Assembly (NCBI GenBank): GCA_038731975.1
Contig: JAVYQJ010000004.1
Location: 1-64,000 of the forward strand
Length of the DNA stretch: 64,000 nucleotides
Direction of reading: 5' to 3'
From: Thermofilaceae archaeon
GTDB lineage: Archaea; Thermoproteota; Thermoprotei; Thermofilales; Thermofilaceae
The translations under genes and the position numbers were made by a program. Positions 26,081-34,066 of the stretch are shown piece by piece; the first letter of the stretch is position 1; every line of letters begins with the position of its first letter. The notes beneath the pieces were generated by a model. It was not told the origin of the DNA, made no database searches, and saw only the letters and a program-made list of their open reading frames with translations.

Positions 26081-27562
26081 ATGAAGAGCCCCGTTTTTGG
26101 GGTAACAATGATACTGGATGAGCGCAAGCACGTCTACCCGCACTACTACGATAAGTGCCTCGAGATGGTCCACTACTGGAGGTCGTTCATCGAGTCGATC
26201 AAGTTCCAGGATGGAACGTCACCTAGGGCTGTGGCCTCATCCGAGCTCATCACTTCGGTTGATTCCGCCAGAAGGGTTGGCGAAGAGTTCCTGGAGAAGA
26301 AGGTCCGCGCGGTGATCCTCAACTTCCACGTGTGGAACTTCCCCTACCTTGTCTGGCCCTTCATCAACACCGTGGGTAAGGATAAGCCGATCCTCTGCCT
26401 CTCGAACAATGAGGGCGCTTACCCCGGTAACGTCGGGCTGCTGGCCACAAGTGGCGCGTTGAGGCAGGCCGGCTTGACGGTCCACAGGATCATCGGCGAC
26501 CCCGGGGACCCGAAGGTGAAGGAGAAGGTGAGGAAGTGGGTGATGGCTGCCACCGCTGCGGTCAACCTGAGGAACGAAGTGTACGGAATGTACGGTGGCC
26601 ACTCGATGGGGATGGAGACCGGGTACTTCCACCTCGTCCCCATCCAGCGGTACTTCGGCACGACGGTCTACCAGATTGATCAGCTTTTGATCGTCGAGAA
26701 GATGAGGGAGATCCCCGACGAGGAGGTTGAGAAGGGGGTTAAGTGGCTGGAGGAGAACGTGGGGAGGATCGAGTACGATGGGAAAATGCTCACGAGGGAG
26801 ACTTTGGCCAAGCAGGTAAGGCTCTACCTGGCGGTCAAAAGGCTCAACGAGGAGTACGGCTTCGACTTCTGCGGGATTAAGGGTCAGAGGGAGCTTTCGG
26901 AGCACGTCGTGATCCCCGATGTAGCAGAGATGCTCCTCAACGACCCGTACGACTGGAACGGCCCTAAAGAGCCAACCGTCTGCGCGACAGAGGCAGACTC
27001 TCTTGGCGCCTTGACCATGCAGGTTCTGAAGTACGTCAGCGGCGGGCTGCCCGTGCTCTTCATGGACGTTAGGCTCTACCACCCCGACCTCGGCATCTGG
27101 GACTTCTGCAACTCCGGCGTGCACGCGAGCTGGTACGCAGCCAGGAGCTACAACCCGAGGGAGAACCTGAGGAAGGTGACGCTGTACCCGGCTCTCGAGC
27201 TCTACTTCAAGGCTGGGGGCGCCTCCGTTTCCTTCGACGCTGCACCAGGCGAGCTCACTTTCGCGCGGCTCGGCCTCTACAGGGATCAACTGTACATGGT
27301 GATTGTGAAGGGTGAAGCCGTCGAGCTAGACGAGGAGACTAGGAGGAGGATAAACGCGCAGACGAACCCAACATGGCCCCACGTTCACGCCAGGTTGAAC
27401 TGCTCCTACGAGGAGTTCATCGAGTTCTTCCCCGCTAACCACATCCACGCTGTAGCGGGCGATAGAGTCGAAGAGCTCCTGCTATTCTGCGAGCTCACAG
27501 GGGTAAAACCCATCCTGCTGGGAACAGGAAGGTACAGATCGTTCCAGGAAGCTTTTCAGTAA
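26081..27562 (+). CDS. L-fucose/L-arabinose isomerase-family protein
   Basis: The 493-residue protein follows the fucose-isomerase fold. Conserved points include LNFHVWNFPYLVWPFINTVG, CLSNNEGAYPGNVGLLATSG, YGMYGGHSMGMETGY, then the presumed metal ligands in CATEADSLGALTMQVL (Glu) and VLFMDVRLYHPD (Asp), and FFPANHIHAVAGD (His) near the C-terminus, as in FucI. It should interconvert an aldose and ketose, but side-chain changes prevent naming the sugar. ATG 26081 follows a TATA-like gtatattat (26045-26053). A second, shorter paralogue lies at 32.7 kb. Confidence 0.85.
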   Translation: MKSPVFGVTMILDERKHVYPHYYDKCLEMVHYWRSFIESIKFQDGTSPRAVASSELITSVDSARRVGEEFLEKKVRAVILNFHVWNFPYLVWPFINTVGKDKPILCLSNNEGAYPGNVGLLATSGALRQAGLTVHRIIGDPGDPKVKEKVRKWVMAATAAVNLRNEVYGMYGGHSMGMETGYFHLVPIQRYFGTTVYQIDQLLIVEKMREIPDEEVEKGVKWLEENVGRIEYDGKMLTRETLAKQVRLYLAVKRLNEEYGFDFCGIKGQRELSEHVVIPDVAEMLLNDPYDWNGPKEPTVCATEADSLGALTMQVLKYVSGGLPVLFMDVRLYHPDLGIWDFCNSGVHASWYAARSYNPRENLRKVTLYPALELYFKAGGASVSFDAAPGELTFARLGLYRDQLYMVIVKGEAVELDEETRRRINAQTNPTWPHVHARLNCSYEEFIEFFPANHIHAVAGDRVEELLLFCELTGVKPILLGTGRYRSFQEAFQ

Positions 27563-27579
27563 GCATCCCGAACTCAGGG

Positions 27580-27593
27580 GATAATTTTTTGGT
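27580..27593 (+). terminator. T-run terminator after the fucose-isomerase-family gene
   Basis: Six consecutive T residues (27585-27590) follow an A/T-rich step between two convergent genes. Archaeal RNA polymerase stops at such T runs without needing a hairpin. Confidence 0.45.
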
Positions 27594-28142
27594 TTAAGCC
27601 CGCCCAGCAGAGCTGCTCTGCCCCCCTGTAGCTAGTAGGGCCTGCGCAGCTCTCACGGGTGGACTCTTCTCGAGAGGTTTCAGCAGGATTGCTGCTAGAG
27701 CTACTGAGACTGCGGTTTGGCCGAAGATATCGCGTGCGAGGGAGACGAGGGCTGGGGCTAGGCCTTTCACGAAGACGTTTACCGCGAAGTACGTGAAGCT
27801 CATGATGAGACCACCCACTAGCATGGCGGCCAGCTGCACCGGGAACCTCTTACCCTTCCCTAGCCCAGCGACGTATCCTTGAAGCCCGTGCGCCACTAGC
27901 GTAACGTACCAGCGCGGGTAGCCGATGAGGAGGTCGGCGATCACGGGGCCGACGAGCCCCACGGTCGCCCCCATCGCCGGCCCGAACAGGAGAGCGGCGA
28001 GGTAGATGACGGTATCACCGATGTGCGTGTAACCGCCGGTTGGTGAGGGGAGAGCCAGGCCCGGGAAGTAGGTTAGAACGGCTGTCAATGCGGATAGCAT
28101 GGATGCAACAGCCGCGAAAGCAGCGCTCCTTCTGGGCGCCAC
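27594..28142 (-). CDS. ECF transporter S component (substrate-binding membrane subunit)
   Basis: The 182-residue protein has five to six hydrophobic segments. After an Ala-rich first helix it reads GGYTHIGDTVIYLAALLFGP, then AMGATVGLVGPVIADLLIG, which is the typical loop and helix pattern of S components for water-soluble vitamins or related compounds. It has no attached ATPase or T component here, so it would have to use shared EcfAT genes elsewhere. The start is GTG 28142, preceded by tttaaaatc on the reverse strand. The ligand is unknown. Confidence 0.83.
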   Translation of the reverse strand: MAPRRSAAFAAVASMLSALTAVLTYFPGLALPSPTGGYTHIGDTVIYLAALLFGPAMGATVGLVGPVIADLLIGYPRWYVTLVAHGLQGYVAGLGKGKRFPVQLAAMLVGGLIMSFTYFAVNVFVKGLAPALVSLARDIFGQTAVSVALAAILLKPLEKSPPVRAAQALLATGGQSSSAGRA

Positions 28143-28432
28143 AGGGGCTCACCCCATCCAGATTTTAAACCATTTTCTGAATCCTTGAAGCCAGCTCGCC
28201 CCTCGCGAAACGCTTGGTGCAGCCATCCCTGCTGCGCCTGTACGCGCATTGAACGGTAAACGCCGCTTCGGCTGGAGTTTAGCATGGGTGCTTTCAGAGT
28301 GAATAACGGCAAATGCTGCGCTCAGGGTTTTGAACGCACATGAAGGCTCTATCGAGCAGTCCTAACCGACTTCTAAATTTCCTGCAGCTTTTACCTAACG
28401 AAAAATAAGATTTATAGCCAGAATATTGCTTT

Positions 28433-30670
28433 GTGGAGATCCTCCATCAGGCAGCGAAGGCAGGCGACGTTGACCACGTGAGAACCCTCCTCGAGCGCGG
28501 ATGGAGCGTGAACGCGAGGGATTTGAAGGGATGGACGCCGCTGCACTACGCAGCAGTCTTTGGACACGTAGAGGTTGCGAAGCTCCTCATCAAGTACGGG
28601 GCTGATGTCAACGCTAGGGATCGAAAAGGGCTTACGCCTTTGTACTACGCGGTCAAGGAAGGGAGTTTCAATGTTGCTGAGCTTCTCCTCCAGCAGGGCG
28701 CGGACCCCAGAGTCAAGGATAAGAGGGGGTGGACTCCGATCCATTACGGCGCGAAGAAGGCAAAGCTGCGGGTCGATCAGATTCTCGCGGGGGAGCCGCC
28801 CCCGCTTAGGATCGTCAGACTGCTGCTGGAGAGTGGTTCTGACCCTAACGCTCAAACGCGCGAGGGGCTCACGCCGCTGCACATCGCGGTCCGCCGCAGC
28901 AATGTCGCATTGGCTAAGCTGCTCCTCGATGCTGGTGCTAGCCCGAACATGCCCGACAAGAAGGGTTGGACGCCTCTGCACTACGCTTACCGCTACGGTG
29001 ACGAGGAGCTCATCGAGCTGCTACTGAAATACGGTGCAAACACGGGTGTAAGGGACAAGAAGGGTAGGACTCCGCCGATGCTGCGCAACACCCGCCCCAT
29101 CCTTAGGCGCGGGGCCAAGCCGATGAGTTTGAGCGGGATCCTCGCCAGGGAGGCGACGTACAGATCCAGGAAGGAAAGGGGGGAAATCCCAATCCGGGGT
29201 ATCGACCTCTTTGCTCTGGCCTGGACGGTATTCTTGTTCTTCCTGTCCCTCCTATTTGGGGTCATTTTCGCCTACTTCATCTATGACGGTTACTTGGAGT
29301 TGATCACCTCCATCTTTTTCCTTTTCACGCTATCCATGCTGCCCGGGCTCGCGCAAATGGCTCTGAACACGCACGTGATCATCGCCGACAAGCTGATAGA
29401 TCCGCTACTCCACCTACCCGTCAGTTGGGGGACCCTCCGTTGGGCACTAGTCAAGCAGGCCTTCATATGGGGAGGCTTCTCGCCCCTTTTCGCCTTCATC
29501 CCAGCGGCAATCGTGTACTTGACCATTCGAAAGAGCCCCGCTGTACCCCTAGGGCTTGCGCTAACCGGGATCTTTGCGACACTCTTGGCGGTTTCGCTAG
29601 GATACTTGATCGGCTCTTACGTCAGCAAATACACGAGGAGCCTGCTAAGGAGGATCGTATCTACTGTGGTATGGGTCCTGATCCTGGGGTTAGGCTACAT
29701 CTTCGACCTGTTAAACAAATTCTTCTATAAAGCTGTTTTGCCACTTGATAGCGCCCTGATGAGTATGATTCCTCCCTTCTGCTTCCTACATGTGACGCGT
29801 AACGCGCTTTCACTCACCGTGTCCGCCGCACTGCTTGCTGCATCCGTGTGGCTGACCCGCTTCTCCGTGCGCAGGTTCGTGAGGGCGGCGACAGTGGCAG
29901 AGATCTACGCGCCCCCGCTCGCTCCTCCGTGGAGGGTAAGCGCGAGGGCTCTGATGCCCACGCTTAAGGAGCTGAAGATGGTTGCTAGAGCACCGAGGAT
30001 GATGGCGTTGATCATCACCCAAGCCTTGCTACCCTCGCTACTCCTGATTTACTGGATTCTGACCGTGCTGAGACAAATGCTCACCTGGTGGTTCGAACCC
30101 TCTCTATCAAACGCCGCCACAATGGTGATCATGATGATGTTGGTATCGATAGGGATCTTTCAGGCTCTCCAGGGCGTCTACATCATGTTCGTCGCCGAGG
30201 CGGCGAACGCTAGGACGCTATACCTGCTCCCGTTGACGAGGTTGAACGTTGCGCTATCGAAATCCCTCGCCCTACTACTCATGTGCCTCCCGTTCATCGT
30301 GGCAGCCTCAGCGGTTGCCGCGATATTCCTGAACGCTTCAGCGGGGTTGGTTTACGCGGCGGCCACAGTCGGCTCAGTATTGCTGGGCGGCTTGATCCTC
30401 GCAATGTGGGCTCCGCGGGAGCCCTCAGACTGGAGCCGAGAGACCTACAGCCAACTCAAACTCATCGTGGCGTGGCTCGCTCTGCTTACCCCTCTCATAG
30501 TTTTGTTATCGCTTCCCCTGCTACCCCTGCTGCTCCCGATGTATCCCAAGCTGTGCGAGATCGTGCAGTTCCTCTTTGACCATGGACACTTCTTCCTGCT
30601 AGCCTACCTTGTAGCGCTGTACGTGAGTGGCACGCTAGTGGCGGTGCTGATAAGCAGAGACCCAGTGTAG
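28433..30670 (+). CDS. ankyrin-repeat domain fused to an ABC-2-type membrane permease
   Basis: The first roughly 215 residues are at least six ankyrin repeats (GWTPLHYAAVFGHVEVAKLL, GLTPLYYAVKEGSFNVAELL, GLTPLHIAVRRSNVALAKLL, GWTPLHYAYRYGDEELIELL). After a basic linker (about 215-250), the rest contains about 12-14 hydrophobic segments, laid out like the large ABC exporter permeases with a mid-protein loop, RVSARALMPTLKELKMVAR. An ABC ATPase 1 kb downstream on the opposite strand is a likely partner. Ankyrin repeats are rare in archaea and the fusion is unusual: the cytosolic repeats may recruit or gate a partner protein. The start is GTG 28433 with TATA-like tttata at 28411-28416. Substrate and direction of transport are unknown. 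Confidence 0.8.
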   Translation: MEILHQAAKAGDVDHVRTLLERGWSVNARDLKGWTPLHYAAVFGHVEVAKLLIKYGADVNARDRKGLTPLYYAVKEGSFNVAELLLQQGADPRVKDKRGWTPIHYGAKKAKLRVDQILAGEPPPLRIVRLLLESGSDPNAQTREGLTPLHIAVRRSNVALAKLLLDAGASPNMPDKKGWTPLHYAYRYGDEELIELLLKYGANTGVRDKKGRTPPMLRNTRPILRRGAKPMSLSGILAREATYRSRKERGEIPIRGIDLFALAWTVFLFFLSLLFGVIFAYFIYDGYLELITSIFFLFTLSMLPGLAQMALNTHVIIADKLIDPLLHLPVSWGTLRWALVKQAFIWGGFSPLFAFIPAAIVYLTIRKSPAVPLGLALTGIFATLLAVSLGYLIGSYVSKYTRSLLRRIVSTVVWVLILGLGYIFDLLNKFFYKAVLPLDSALMSMIPPFCFLHVTRNALSLTVSAALLAASVWLTRFSVRRFVRAATVAEIYAPPLAPPWRVSARALMPTLKELKMVARAPRMMALIITQALLPSLLLIYWILTVLRQMLTWWFEPSLSNAATMVIMMMLVSIGIFQALQGVYIMFVAEAANARTLYLLPLTRLNVALSKSLALLLMCLPFIVAASAVAAIFLNASAGLVYAAATVGSVLLGGLILAMWAPREPSDWSRETYSQLKLIVAWLALLTPLIVLLSLPLLPLLLPMYPKLCEIVQFLFDHGHFFLLAYLVALYVSGTLVAVLISRDPV

Positions 30671-30765
30671 ATGTTGAGCTGCTCGCGCCTTGGATCTAGG
30701 GCTTTCGAATCAGCAGCGTTTCTGGGCCGAAAGCCTTAATCCTGAGAAGTATTTACGGATCCATA

Positions 30766-31779
30766 ATGTCGTCAAGTGAAATCGAGGCAATGTACTCTCA
30801 GCTTGTGCAGTGGTACAGCCAACATTCGCTTACTCCAAGAAGGGAGGTTGAGCGCAATATAGCGGAGAAAGTGGCACAAGGTAAGACGCGAGAGCAAGCC
30901 ATCAGGGAGCTTTACGAGGAGAGGACTCGATTTTTCCAAGAGCTTGTGACGCCAGTGCGCAGGGAAGCACCCCTTTCCAGGCTTGAAGCGTCACTAGAAC
31001 CTCTCAGATACGCTGGCAGCTTAGAGAGCGCAGCTGCCGTGCTCTTCCTCCTTCTGTTCTTCTCCCTATTTATGCTCGCGGTCGTTTCAATGCGTCCCGA
31101 AGGCTTCTTTGTCGCAATCGTAGCATTCATGATTGTAGCCGTTACTCTACCTATCCTGCTGCTCTTGTTCTCGGGTGGCAGAGCGGAGTGGAGGTTTGAG
31201 GAGGAGATTACCTTGAGAGGAGCTAGTGGGTGGATTCAGGCGATTCTCGAGGCTGTGCCGAAGGTATTCCAATCCCTCACGCTGGAGGAGGTTTTGCCAC
31301 ATATCGAGGGTAACAGGCTTCAGCTCAAGATCAAGTTGACGAGATCTGTTGTAGAGTGGAGCCAGTATGGCACTGCTACCAGGAATGTCGATCTGGGTTT
31401 TGTCGTTGTAGAAGCGCTCTTCGAGCCTCGTGACAGTGATCTGCACGTAAAGGTAAGCTACTCCGGCGAGCCGCCTAAGGAGCACGCTAGCTTGGCTGCA
31501 AATGAGTATGAAAAGCTGGTAGTAGCCTTCCGATCGGCAGTAAACGAGGCTTGGGAGAGGGTGAAGCCAAAACCCGTCTTCACACTGGACTTCGAGAGGC
31601 TGGCTGAGCTTATCGCGTCGAAAGGGTTTGTCATAGCTGCGGTACGCTGTCCCTACTGTGGCGGCAGCGTGGATCTGCCAAAGAGCGGCGACATAATGAA
31701 GTGCTCCTACTGCGGGACAACGCTCAAGGCGGTTGAAGTCTACGAGATCATCAAAAGGCTCGTCAAAGATCTGACTTGA
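30766..31779 (+). CDS. two-helix membrane protein with C-terminal zinc ribbon
   Basis: I do not recognise this 337-residue protein as a known family. An N-terminal helical region (about 1-85) precedes two adjacent membrane helices (about 88-135). A large soluble domain of strands follows (about 140-280), and the protein ends in a zinc ribbon RCPYCGGSVDLPKSGDIMKC SYCG-like with two Cys-x-x-Cys pairs separated by 14 residues. It lies between the ankyrin-permease gene and the ABC ATPase gene, so it may be an accessory of that transporter. ATG 30766 follows a TATA-like ccttaatc near 30734-30741. Confidence 0.75.
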   Translation: MSSSEIEAMYSQLVQWYSQHSLTPRREVERNIAEKVAQGKTREQAIRELYEERTRFFQELVTPVRREAPLSRLEASLEPLRYAGSLESAAAVLFLLLFFSLFMLAVVSMRPEGFFVAIVAFMIVAVTLPILLLLFSGGRAEWRFEEEITLRGASGWIQAILEAVPKVFQSLTLEEVLPHIEGNRLQLKIKLTRSVVEWSQYGTATRNVDLGFVVVEALFEPRDSDLHVKVSYSGEPPKEHASLAANEYEKLVVAFRSAVNEAWERVKPKPVFTLDFERLAELIASKGFVIAAVRCPYCGGSVDLPKSGDIMKCSYCGTTLKAVEVYEIIKRLVKDLT

Positions 31780-31788
31780 GCTTGGAAT

Positions 31789-32550
31789 CTAGGCTTCTGT
31801 CCGAAGCTTCTTGAGGGCTTCGACTAGCTCCTTCAGCTCGCTAGAGAGGCCGGTCACTTCAAGGAAGTAGCTCTCTAGGTCCTTCTTGCCCTTCAAATCG
31901 GCGATCGGCCCCTTCGCCACGACCCTCCCCCTGTGCATGATCGTGACCTCGTCCGCCACGGCCTCTGCCAGCTCCATCACGTGGGTGGAGAAGATAACTG
32001 TCCCTCCACCCTCCGCCGCGCGCCTTAAGAAGGTCTTCAGGACGACGGCAACCTCGGGGTCGAGCCCGCTGAAGGGCTCGTCGAAGATGAGCACCTTTGG
32101 CATGTGAAGCAGGGCGCCGATGATTTGCACCTTCCTCTTGTTACCCAAGCTCAGTTCCCCGCAAAGCTTGCCCATGTGCTCCTCCAGCTTGAAGGCCTTC
32201 ACCAAAGCCTCCACACGCTCCTTAAGGACCAGCGTGGGTATCCGGTAGATATGCCCGAGAAAGCTGAACCACTCGGCTGGCGTAAGGCTCTCGTAGAGGA
32301 TCGGCTCCTCAGGCAGGTAGCCTACCACCCTTCTGGCTTCAATGGGGTTCAAGAGGGGGTTGACGCCGTTTAAGCTGACGTAACCGGCGTCAGGCTTCAC
32401 CAAGCCGACAGCTATCTTCATCAGCGTGGACTTGCCCGAGCCGTTGGGGCCGAGGAGCGCGTGAACCCTACCCGGCTCGAAATCAACGCTCACGTTGTCT
32501 AAAGCCACAACGCTCCCAAAAGCCTTAGAGACGCCCCGAAAGGTTAGCAC
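31789..32550 (-). CDS. ABC transporter ATP-binding protein
   Basis: This protein of about 253 residues has Walker A LLGPNGSGKSTLMKIAVG, Q-loop region VVGYLPEEPILYESLTPAEW, signature LSLGNKRKVQIIGAL (variant of LSGGQ), Walker B VLIFDEPFSGLDPE and the H-loop FSTHVMELAE. It belongs to the CcmA/NatA/ABC-2 exporter group. GTG 32550 is chosen over longer starts because a TATA-like ttatatttat on the reverse strand lies about 25 bases upstream and VLTFRGVSKAFGS is the usual family start. The only permease nearby is the ankyrin-fused one. Confidence 0.9.
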   Translation of the reverse strand: MLTFRGVSKAFGSVVALDNVSVDFEPGRVHALLGPNGSGKSTLMKIAVGLVKPDAGYVSLNGVNPLLNPIEARRVVGYLPEEPILYESLTPAEWFSFLGHIYRIPTLVLKERVEALVKAFKLEEHMGKLCGELSLGNKRKVQIIGALLHMPKVLIFDEPFSGLDPEVAVVLKTFLRRAAEGGGTVIFSTHVMELAEAVADEVTIMHRGRVVAKGPIADLKGKKDLESYFLEVTGLSSELKELVEALKKLRTEA

Positions 32551-32668
32551 GCAACATTCGAGAAAGAGGATAAATATAAGAGTTACCCACGCGAGAGAAG
32601 CCCCCTCCCAACTCATTGCTTACGAAGCCCCAGACAACGTTTTAGTACGGGAGGGGGAGGATCCCAGC
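32551..32668. promoter_or_regulatory. divergent promoter of ABC ATPase and second fucose-isomerase-family gene
   Basis: A central A/T-rich box (aggataaatataagag, about 32568-32583) can be read as a TATA element in both directions. Read in reverse it is correctly spaced for a leaderless ABC ATPase start at 32550. Read forward it would leave a leader of about 60 bases ending in a purine-rich gggagggggagg (32650-32660) about 8 bases before GTG 32669, a likely ribosome-binding site. Confidence 0.5.
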
Positions 32669-34066
32669 GTGACGAAAGTAAAGGTGGGGTTTGTCCCTCT
32701 CCACAGGGTACCCTTCGATGAGGAGTGGGCTCGCGAGCTGAAGCACCGCTTCATCGAGGCTGTGAGAGCCAGCTTCGGCGACATCGTGGAGCTTGTCTAC
32801 CCGGGCGAGGGTGATACGAAGCTGGGGCTGGTTTCAGACGACGATGACGCGGAGGCTGTGGCGGAGCTCTTCAAGCGGGAAGGGGTTGACGGCATCGTCA
32901 TCGCGGCGCTCACCTTCGGCGACGAGCTTGCTGGAGCGAGGGTTGCTGAGCTGCTGAGGAAGCCGGTGATGATCTACGCCACGAAGGAGCCTCCCCCGCT
33001 GCCCGGGGGCTTCCGCCGCTCAGACTCATTCTGCGGGACTCTCTCGCTGGCCTCAGCCCTCTACAGGAGGAAGATTCCGTTCGTCTTCGGCGGTATCGTC
33101 TACCCCGAGGATCCCGAGTTCAAGCGGAGCTTCGACTCGTTCGTTAGGGCCGTTAACGCCGTGAAGACCTTCGTCGGCGCTAAGGTGGGAGCCGTGGGCC
33201 CGAGGCCTGAGAGGTTTGAGACCGTCACGTTTAACGAGGCGGTGATGGCGGCGAAGTTCAGCCAGAGGGTTGTTCACTTCGACCTTATCGAGGTCGTGGA
33301 GGAGGCAAGGCGGCTGAGCGACAGCGACCCTAGGGTTGCTAAGACCGTCGGGGAGATCGAGGCTCAGCTGGACGTCAGCGGAGTCACCCGAGAAGCCCTC
33401 CTAAAGCTGGCGAAGCTTGAGGTCGTGTTGAGCGAGCTGGCGGAGAGGAGGAAGCTGGTCGGCATGGGGGTGCGCTGCTGGACCGAGCTGGAGCGCTACT
33501 TCGGCGTAACTCCCTGCCTCGTGATGGGTAGGCTGACCGATAGGGGCGTAATGATGGCATGCGAGGTCGATGTCTACGGCGTCCTGACGATGGCCCTCCA
33601 GTACGCCGCATCGCTGGGCAAAACGGTGCCCTTCTTCATCGATTGGACGATCAGGCACCCGACTAGGGACAACGTGTTCCTAGCCTGGCACTGCGGGAAC
33701 CTGCCGCCATCCCTCTGCAGCGGAGGTTGCAGGCTGAGCTTCCACGGCGTGATGCACAGAGCCCTCGGCGCCGAGCGCTGCTACGGGACGGTTGACGGGC
33801 GCGCCAAGCCCGGTGAAGTGACCATCAGCAGGCTCGTCGAGTACGATGGCGAGTTCAAGCTGTTCGTAACGAGAGGGAGGATAGTTGAAGAACCGGGAGA
33901 GTTTAGAGGTAGCTGGGCTTGGGTTGAGGTCCCCGACTTGGATAAGGTTTACACAACGCTGATTGAGGAAGGTTTCATCCACCATGCTTCGATGATCCAC
34001 GGCGACATCGTAGAGCCCCTAAAGATGGCCGCAAAGCTGCTCGACATAAAAGCCGTAGTCGTTTAG
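32669..34066 (+). CDS. fucose/arabinose isomerase-family protein, second copy
   Basis: The 465-residue protein has the family points GVDGIVIAALTFGDELAGA, KFSQRVVHFDLIEV, VRCWTELERYFGVTPCLVMG, the presumed metal ligands in MACEVDVYGVLTMAL (Glu) and VPFFIDWTIRHPT (Asp), VFLAWHCGNLPPSLC, and a late FIHHASMIHGD with His. It resembles the subgroup of distant FucI relatives found in sugar-degradation loci of archaea and Thermotogae. GTG 32669 is preferred because of the purine-rich ribosome-binding site; an open frame extends upstream but enters the divergent promoter. It differs from the copy at 26 kb enough to suggest a different sugar. Confidence 0.83.
   Translation: MTKVKVGFVPLHRVPFDEEWARELKHRFIEAVRASFGDIVELVYPGEGDTKLGLVSDDDDAEAVAELFKREGVDGIVIAALTFGDELAGARVAELLRKPVMIYATKEPPPLPGGFRRSDSFCGTLSLASALYRRKIPFVFGGIVYPEDPEFKRSFDSFVRAVNAVKTFVGAKVGAVGPRPERFETVTFNEAVMAAKFSQRVVHFDLIEVVEEARRLSDSDPRVAKTVGEIEAQLDVSGVTREALLKLAKLEVVLSELAERRKLVGMGVRCWTELERYFGVTPCLVMGRLTDRGVMMACEVDVYGVLTMALQYAASLGKTVPFFIDWTIRHPTRDNVFLAWHCGNLPPSLCSGGCRLSFHGVMHRALGAERCYGTVDGRAKPGEVTISRLVEYDGEFKLFVTRGRIVEEPGEFRGSWAWVEVPDLDKVYTTLIEEGFIHHASMIHGDIVEPLKMAAKLLDIKAVVV

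Follow-up and report, generated by a model that had tools for sequence, protein, structure and literature searches.

An ankyrin-repeat domain at the head of an archaeal ABC permease raises the questions of whether the two form one gene product, which transporter they belong to and what the repeats might do there. Such a gene lies in a stretch of 64,000 nucleotides from a Thermofilaceae archaeon (contig JAVYQJ010000004.1, positions 1 to 64,000), hereafter the window. A sequence-only reading had described at least six ankyrin repeats and a set of membrane segments in one 745-residue chain, and this arrangement is indeed present, as judged from the open reading frame at 28433-30670, Pfam and AlphaFold.

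Reading frame and ankyrin domain of the fusion gene

The gene and its parts are as follows.
28409..28418, plus strand: TATA-like promoter element GATTTATAGC, ~22-24 bases 5' of the GTG start (sequence and motif scan)
28433..30670, plus strand: fusion gene, ankyrin repeats and predicted 12-TM ABC permease (open reading frame with GTG start, 745 aa)
28433..29104, plus strand: ankyrin domain, residues 1-~224 (Pfam, AlphaFold, Foldseek)
29123..29125, plus strand: internal ATG, at the alignment position where stand-alone permeases begin
29123..30667, plus strand: permease domain, residues 231-745, beginning with a conserved MSLSGILAREATYRSR segment (alignment with six relatives)

The fusion is real and is known from one assembly. 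The codon score is best in frame 0 in each 150-base block from 28433 to the end of the gene, including the junction, and GC3 is 0.72 in the ankyrin part and 0.73 in the permease part. The peptide spanning the junction reads KKGRTPPMLRN...MSLSGILAREATYRS; its DNA is single-copy in the source genome (95% complete, 0.16% contaminated) and lies well within a 125.6-kb contig. No frameshift or assembly join near 29.1 kb, which had been named beforehand as grounds for doubt, is visible, frame and codon score being unbroken. We therefore consider it very improbable that a sequencing or assembly error removed a stop codon and so joined a soluble ankyrin gene to an adjacent permease gene. Such an error would fit the occurrence of the fusion in one assembly and the degenerate C-terminal end of the ankyrin stack. 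A FAD-dependent oxidoreductase gene 5 kb away (PF12831; 34678-36061, minus strand) also falls into two overlapping frames, with an apparent frameshift between them at ~35.46 kb, either a sequence error or a broken gene, which indicates that this stretch is not free of single-base errors or broken genes. Against this stand the codon signal, which favors one frame throughout the junction, the single-copy position of the junction deep in its contig, and the ankyrin consensus (G-R-T-P), which runs on into the seventh repeat in the same frame.

The ankyrin domain consists of an N-terminal cap repeat, five more repeats with clear GxTPLH-type signatures, and an incomplete seventh; in the fourth, an insert lies at about residues 110-122. 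Pfam recognized six Ank stretches in the N-terminal part, far above chance (PF00023, E=2.7e-55; PF12796, E=1.7e-47), and the tandem repeats of ~33 residues with the GxTPLHxA consensus scored 181.6 bits against a cut-off of 21.1. In an AlphaFold run on the fusion with a four-row alignment, the ankyrin part alone was modeled confidently, as a stack over residues 1-~210 (block pLDDT mostly 78-95, with a dip near 110-118). Foldseek matched this modeled stack to DARPins with an rmsd of 1.6-1.8 A, and also to ankyrins. The source genome holds no close DNA copy of the ankyrin part elsewhere, so that it is not a very fresh duplicate.

The TATA-like element 5' of 28433 is the sole one found for the fusion gene, and its spacing from the GTG suggests a leaderless mRNA beginning at or near the fusion start codon. 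The internal ATG at 29123 is probably the ancestral start codon of the permease and a possible secondary start. It nevertheless seems quite improbable to us that one mRNA yields both the fusion and a normal permease from this ATG, or that the short permease alone is made from a cryptic start. The methionine stands exactly at the ancestral start and a short G-run lies ~10 bases 5' of it, but this weak ribosome-binding-like sequence would make a poor ribosome-binding site, a motif scan found no TATA-like motif in the 60 bases 5' of the ATG, and the frame upstream continues into the permease without a break.

The permease half and its relatives

The MSLSGILAREATYRSR segment is the N-terminus of the stand-alone permease relatives, and the alignment indicates that the fusion retains their N-terminus whole (MSLSGILAREATYRSRKE in the window vs MQLEKELAKILAREVAYRSYRR and the like in the relatives); the permease half as a whole aligns with them end to end. 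Six relatives from within the order and class came up in a whole-genome search with residues 259-745 (E 1e-10 to 1e-16, best 1.4e-16), each of them a stand-alone frame of 513-544 residues. Pairwise comparison with stand-alone members gave E values down to 8e-19 at 23-28% identity over most of the chain, and residues invariant in the family are present in the fusion, for example the WGG segment, the K...R-x-P-R segment and PxxPSxW. The permease profile, which itself includes the window sequence, aligned over positions 2-534 of 534.

None of the Pfam and NCBIfam permease models matched the window permease, which did not reach the cut-off of PF09847 (12TM_1), and its identity thus rests on homologues. 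That cut-off was passed by relatives in seven genomes (G004, G008, G017, G020, G022, G024 and G389), and PF09847 matched six of the seven alignment rows, the window being the exception. Judged from these alignments, the window permease is a full-length homologue of the stand-alone PF09847 permeases. It shares with those of the Thermoproteota its length, hydrophobic profile, N-terminal LAxILAREVAYRS segment, central (K)D/E-L...R-x-P-R segment, L-P motifs and cognate ATPase, and differs from them in falling below Pfam detection, in its N-terminal ankyrin domain and in having its ATPase outside its operon. In a rate test the window permease was not, overall, unusually diverged relative to the window ATPase (mean residual -1.9 vs sd 3.1), and we accordingly do not propose relaxed or accelerated evolution.

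Depending on whether the hydropathy cut-off was strict or relaxed, 11 or 14 membrane segments were counted, and 12 appears to be the best count, the relatives being a 12-TM family. Basic residues cluster in the N-terminal tail of the permease and in its central loop, a positive-inside pattern that would place the permease N-terminus, and with it the ankyrin domain, in the cytoplasm. The AlphaFold model of the permease part was unreliable (pLDDT ~40) and too poor for Foldseek, so that where the ankyrin domain lies with respect to the ATPase is judged from topology rules. No solved ABC-2 permease with sequence similarity to the window permease was detected in the PDB. A profile comparison of one permease half with the other (P=0.0035, probability 9%) pointed faintly to a 6+6 duplication near the L-P motifs, which we do not claim.

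The partner ATPase and neighboring genes

Two further genes follow the fusion.
30766..31779, plus strand: two-TM protein with a C-terminal zinc ribbon (open reading frame, 95 bases downstream of the fusion)
31789..32550, minus strand: predicted cognate ABC ATPase, 253 aa (GTG at 32550, TATA-like element ~28 bases upstream)

The ATPase gene (PF00005, E=3.5e-26) lies ~1 kb from the fusion and is convergent with the fusion and zinc-ribbon genes, an orientation that the sequence-only reading did not mention. In the longer frame, which would open with the ATG at 32616, similarity to relatives sets in only at about residue 22, and the start is therefore probably the GTG at 32550. ABC-2 type exporters have their ATPase and permease on separate chains, as at the window locus, and like theirs the window ATPase has all catalytic motifs: Walker A GPNGSGKS, signature LSLG, Walker B VLIFDE, the H-loop STH and a D-loop. 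On its other side, a sugar-isomerase-like gene (Fucose_iso_C; 32495-34066, plus strand) has a listed start that overlaps the ATPase gene; a relative in G001 aligns from residue 59, which suggests that the gene probably begins near 32.67 kb and runs divergently from that of the ATPase.

The proposal that the nearby ATPase completes the transporter gained support from gene neighborhoods. Each of the 13 related loci that we examined has, beside its permease, an ATPase that aligns to that of the window at 36-57% identity; some of these ATPases are truncated at a contig end or at the edge of the region examined. The ATPase beside the permease is also the best match to the window ATPase in the whole genome in six of seven genomes compared (G008, G017, G020, G022, G024 and G027); in the seventh, G004, the adjacent ATPase runs off its contig and has a lower score. 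In G022, which the permease search had missed, the window ATPase served as an independent probe, and the gene next to its match was a PF09847 permease. The next closest ATPase in the source genome (C5, 42%) follows two membrane proteins of its own. These neighborhoods argue that the ATPase at 31789-32550 is the cognate partner of the fusion permease. Since the two genes adjoin in the relatives and are apart in the window, the usual operon is broken in the source genome. The closest ATPase seen (57%) belongs to a genome of another family in the phylum, G085, and horizontal gain is accordingly possible.

The zinc-ribbon protein had also been suggested to help complete the transporter, a suggestion that its relatives do not bear out. 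They occur, similar to it over most of its length, in G001-G003, G004, G018, G024 and G026, and no ABC gene adjoins them in any of the five Thermofilales neighborhoods (G001, G002, G004, G018 and G024). G001-G003 carry the gene without the window's transporter, and in G004 and G024 the zinc-ribbon protein and the permease are both present, on different contigs. We judge that the gene is more plausibly a separate conserved neighbor than part of the transporter. Its strand, shared with the fusion, and its start 95 bases downstream would suit a partner of the ankyrin domain that forms the third subunit, but given relatives that lie away from ABC genes and persist in genomes lacking the transporter, we find such a role hardly credible.

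Origin and possible role of the ankyrin domain

Of 398 genomes of the phylum, 14, counting that of the window, had a match to the permease profile; outside the window the matched frames are 365-546 residues long, and none of these 13 homologues carries ankyrin repeats, as judged from the frames read. PF09847 itself was found in 31 of the 398 genomes, all frames being of at most 572 residues. Scans of public genome and viral contigs, which reach close relatives only, revealed no further fusion, and a family scan returned three stand-alone relatives, all already among the whole-genome results. These searches found no homologue preserving this domain order in other archaea, an outcome that the sequence-only reading had counted against its proposal; so far it tells more against a function of the fusion than against its presence. 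The three remaining species of the genus (G001-G003) lack the permease, and around the flanking sugar-isomerase genes they show no shared gene order and no trace of the transporter. At 26081-28142 of the window, a gene of the L-fucose isomerase family (with an 85% identical relative in G006) lies beside an opposite-strand ECF-type S component (PF07155). In three genomes, G218 (L074), G119 (L077) and G213 (L078), the permease matches cross in-frame stops, and some of these copies may be decaying. The literature searched contained nothing relevant on prokaryotic fusions of ankyrin repeats to an ABC transporter or permease, and none of its papers named the PF09847 accession.

Ankyrin repeats had been called uncommon in archaea, which does not hold for the class of the source organism, where 22 of 81 genomes encode ankyrin proteins. 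An older survey had found them in 11% of archaeal strains, with Thermofilum already among them (PMC3932732). Ankyrin proteins of Thermofilaceae and other Thermoprotei have the same repeat type as the fusion (~44% identity over 214 residues) and are likewise joined to membrane segments, but their membrane parts are unrelated to that of the fusion and none is an ABC permease. Examples with ankyrin repeats and four TM segments occur in another family. In G001, of the same genus, a 1582-residue protein (L095:2219-6964, minus strand) has at least ~13 ankyrin repeats at its C-terminal end, preceded by an N-terminal hydrophobic segment, ~450 extracellular-looking residues, seven TM segments and a CxxC pair; a PF09847 protein on the same contig proved to be a different paralogue, unconnected with ankyrin. 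Another ankyrin family, spanning three genomes of one genus, has two to four similar C-terminal hydrophobic segments (L041:5683-6591, L043:1449-2195 and L044:4688-6229), with a protein-kinase-like part ahead of the repeats in the L044 member. A further ankyrin protein, in G069 (L042:5129-6583), has four C-terminal TM segments and another tail.

The recurrence of ankyrin-membrane fusions in the class bears on whether the present one is neutral, that is, an ankyrin gene that came to lie in phase ahead of the permease, possibly during the displacement of the ATPase gene, and is merely tolerated. The restriction to a single species, the persistence of the permease start methionine and the rearrangement of the locus relative to relatives would all agree with such an event. 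We think it unlikely all the same, since besides that recurrence the ankyrin frame is clean, with its consensus repeats and N-terminal cap repeat intact, and the ankyrin part is without a close DNA copy in the genome.

The account that we favor, with moderate confidence, is that of an otherwise ordinary archaeal PF09847-type ABC transporter that has acquired, near its ATPase site, an ankyrin domain for docking on the cytoplasmic side. The locus would encode one transporter, comprising a 12-segment permease with both ends in the cytoplasm and two copies of the ATPase, a stoichiometry that we infer, bound to its cytoplasmic face. The ankyrin domain directly precedes the conserved LAxILAREVAYRS segment that would lead into TM1, a position that should bring it near the ATPase site on the cytoplasmic side. 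It would then most likely form a fixed docking site for a cytosolic protein, probably a regulator or scaffold that sets the activity or position of the pump. The sequence-only reading had suggested that the repeats could gate export or bind a cargo or partner protein; gating stays conjectural. Protein cargo seems less likely, because all relatives are without ankyrin repeats and transport itself thus needs none. It is conceivable, if speculative, that the ankyrin domain keeps the ATPase on the permease now that their genes are not co-transcribed. Counting against the favored account are the absence of a common operon for ATPase and permease here and the single assembly. Export as the direction of transport, binding of a ligand and a regulatory role are likewise presumed, and no candidate ligand for the ankyrin domain was found.

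The predicted layout resembles that of the TRP channels of eukaryotes, which bear a cytoplasmic N-terminal ankyrin stack before their membrane segments; the likeness is one of layout alone, as the membrane protein is unrelated and there is no ATPase. We offer only tentatively, as less likely than not, the idea that binding of a cytosolic protein to a built-in ankyrin domain by the ATPase site switches, localizes or feeds an archaeal ABC exporter; no description of such an ankyrin-controlled layout for ABC transporters was found in the literature searched.

The kind of transporter is known but little studied, and what is new is the ankyrin arm, in a single example. The conserved pairing of ATPase and permease, in our view the strongest new evidence here, also assigns an ABC ATPase to the present group of PF09847-type proteins, including a divergent member missed by Pfam. 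To our knowledge, few partners are known for the ankyrin proteins of free-living archaea. A permease with an ankyrin arm links the little-studied PF09847 proteins to archaeal ankyrin domains, and a pull-down with the ankyrin domain could yield both a partner of the transporter and the native ligand of an archaeal ankyrin domain.
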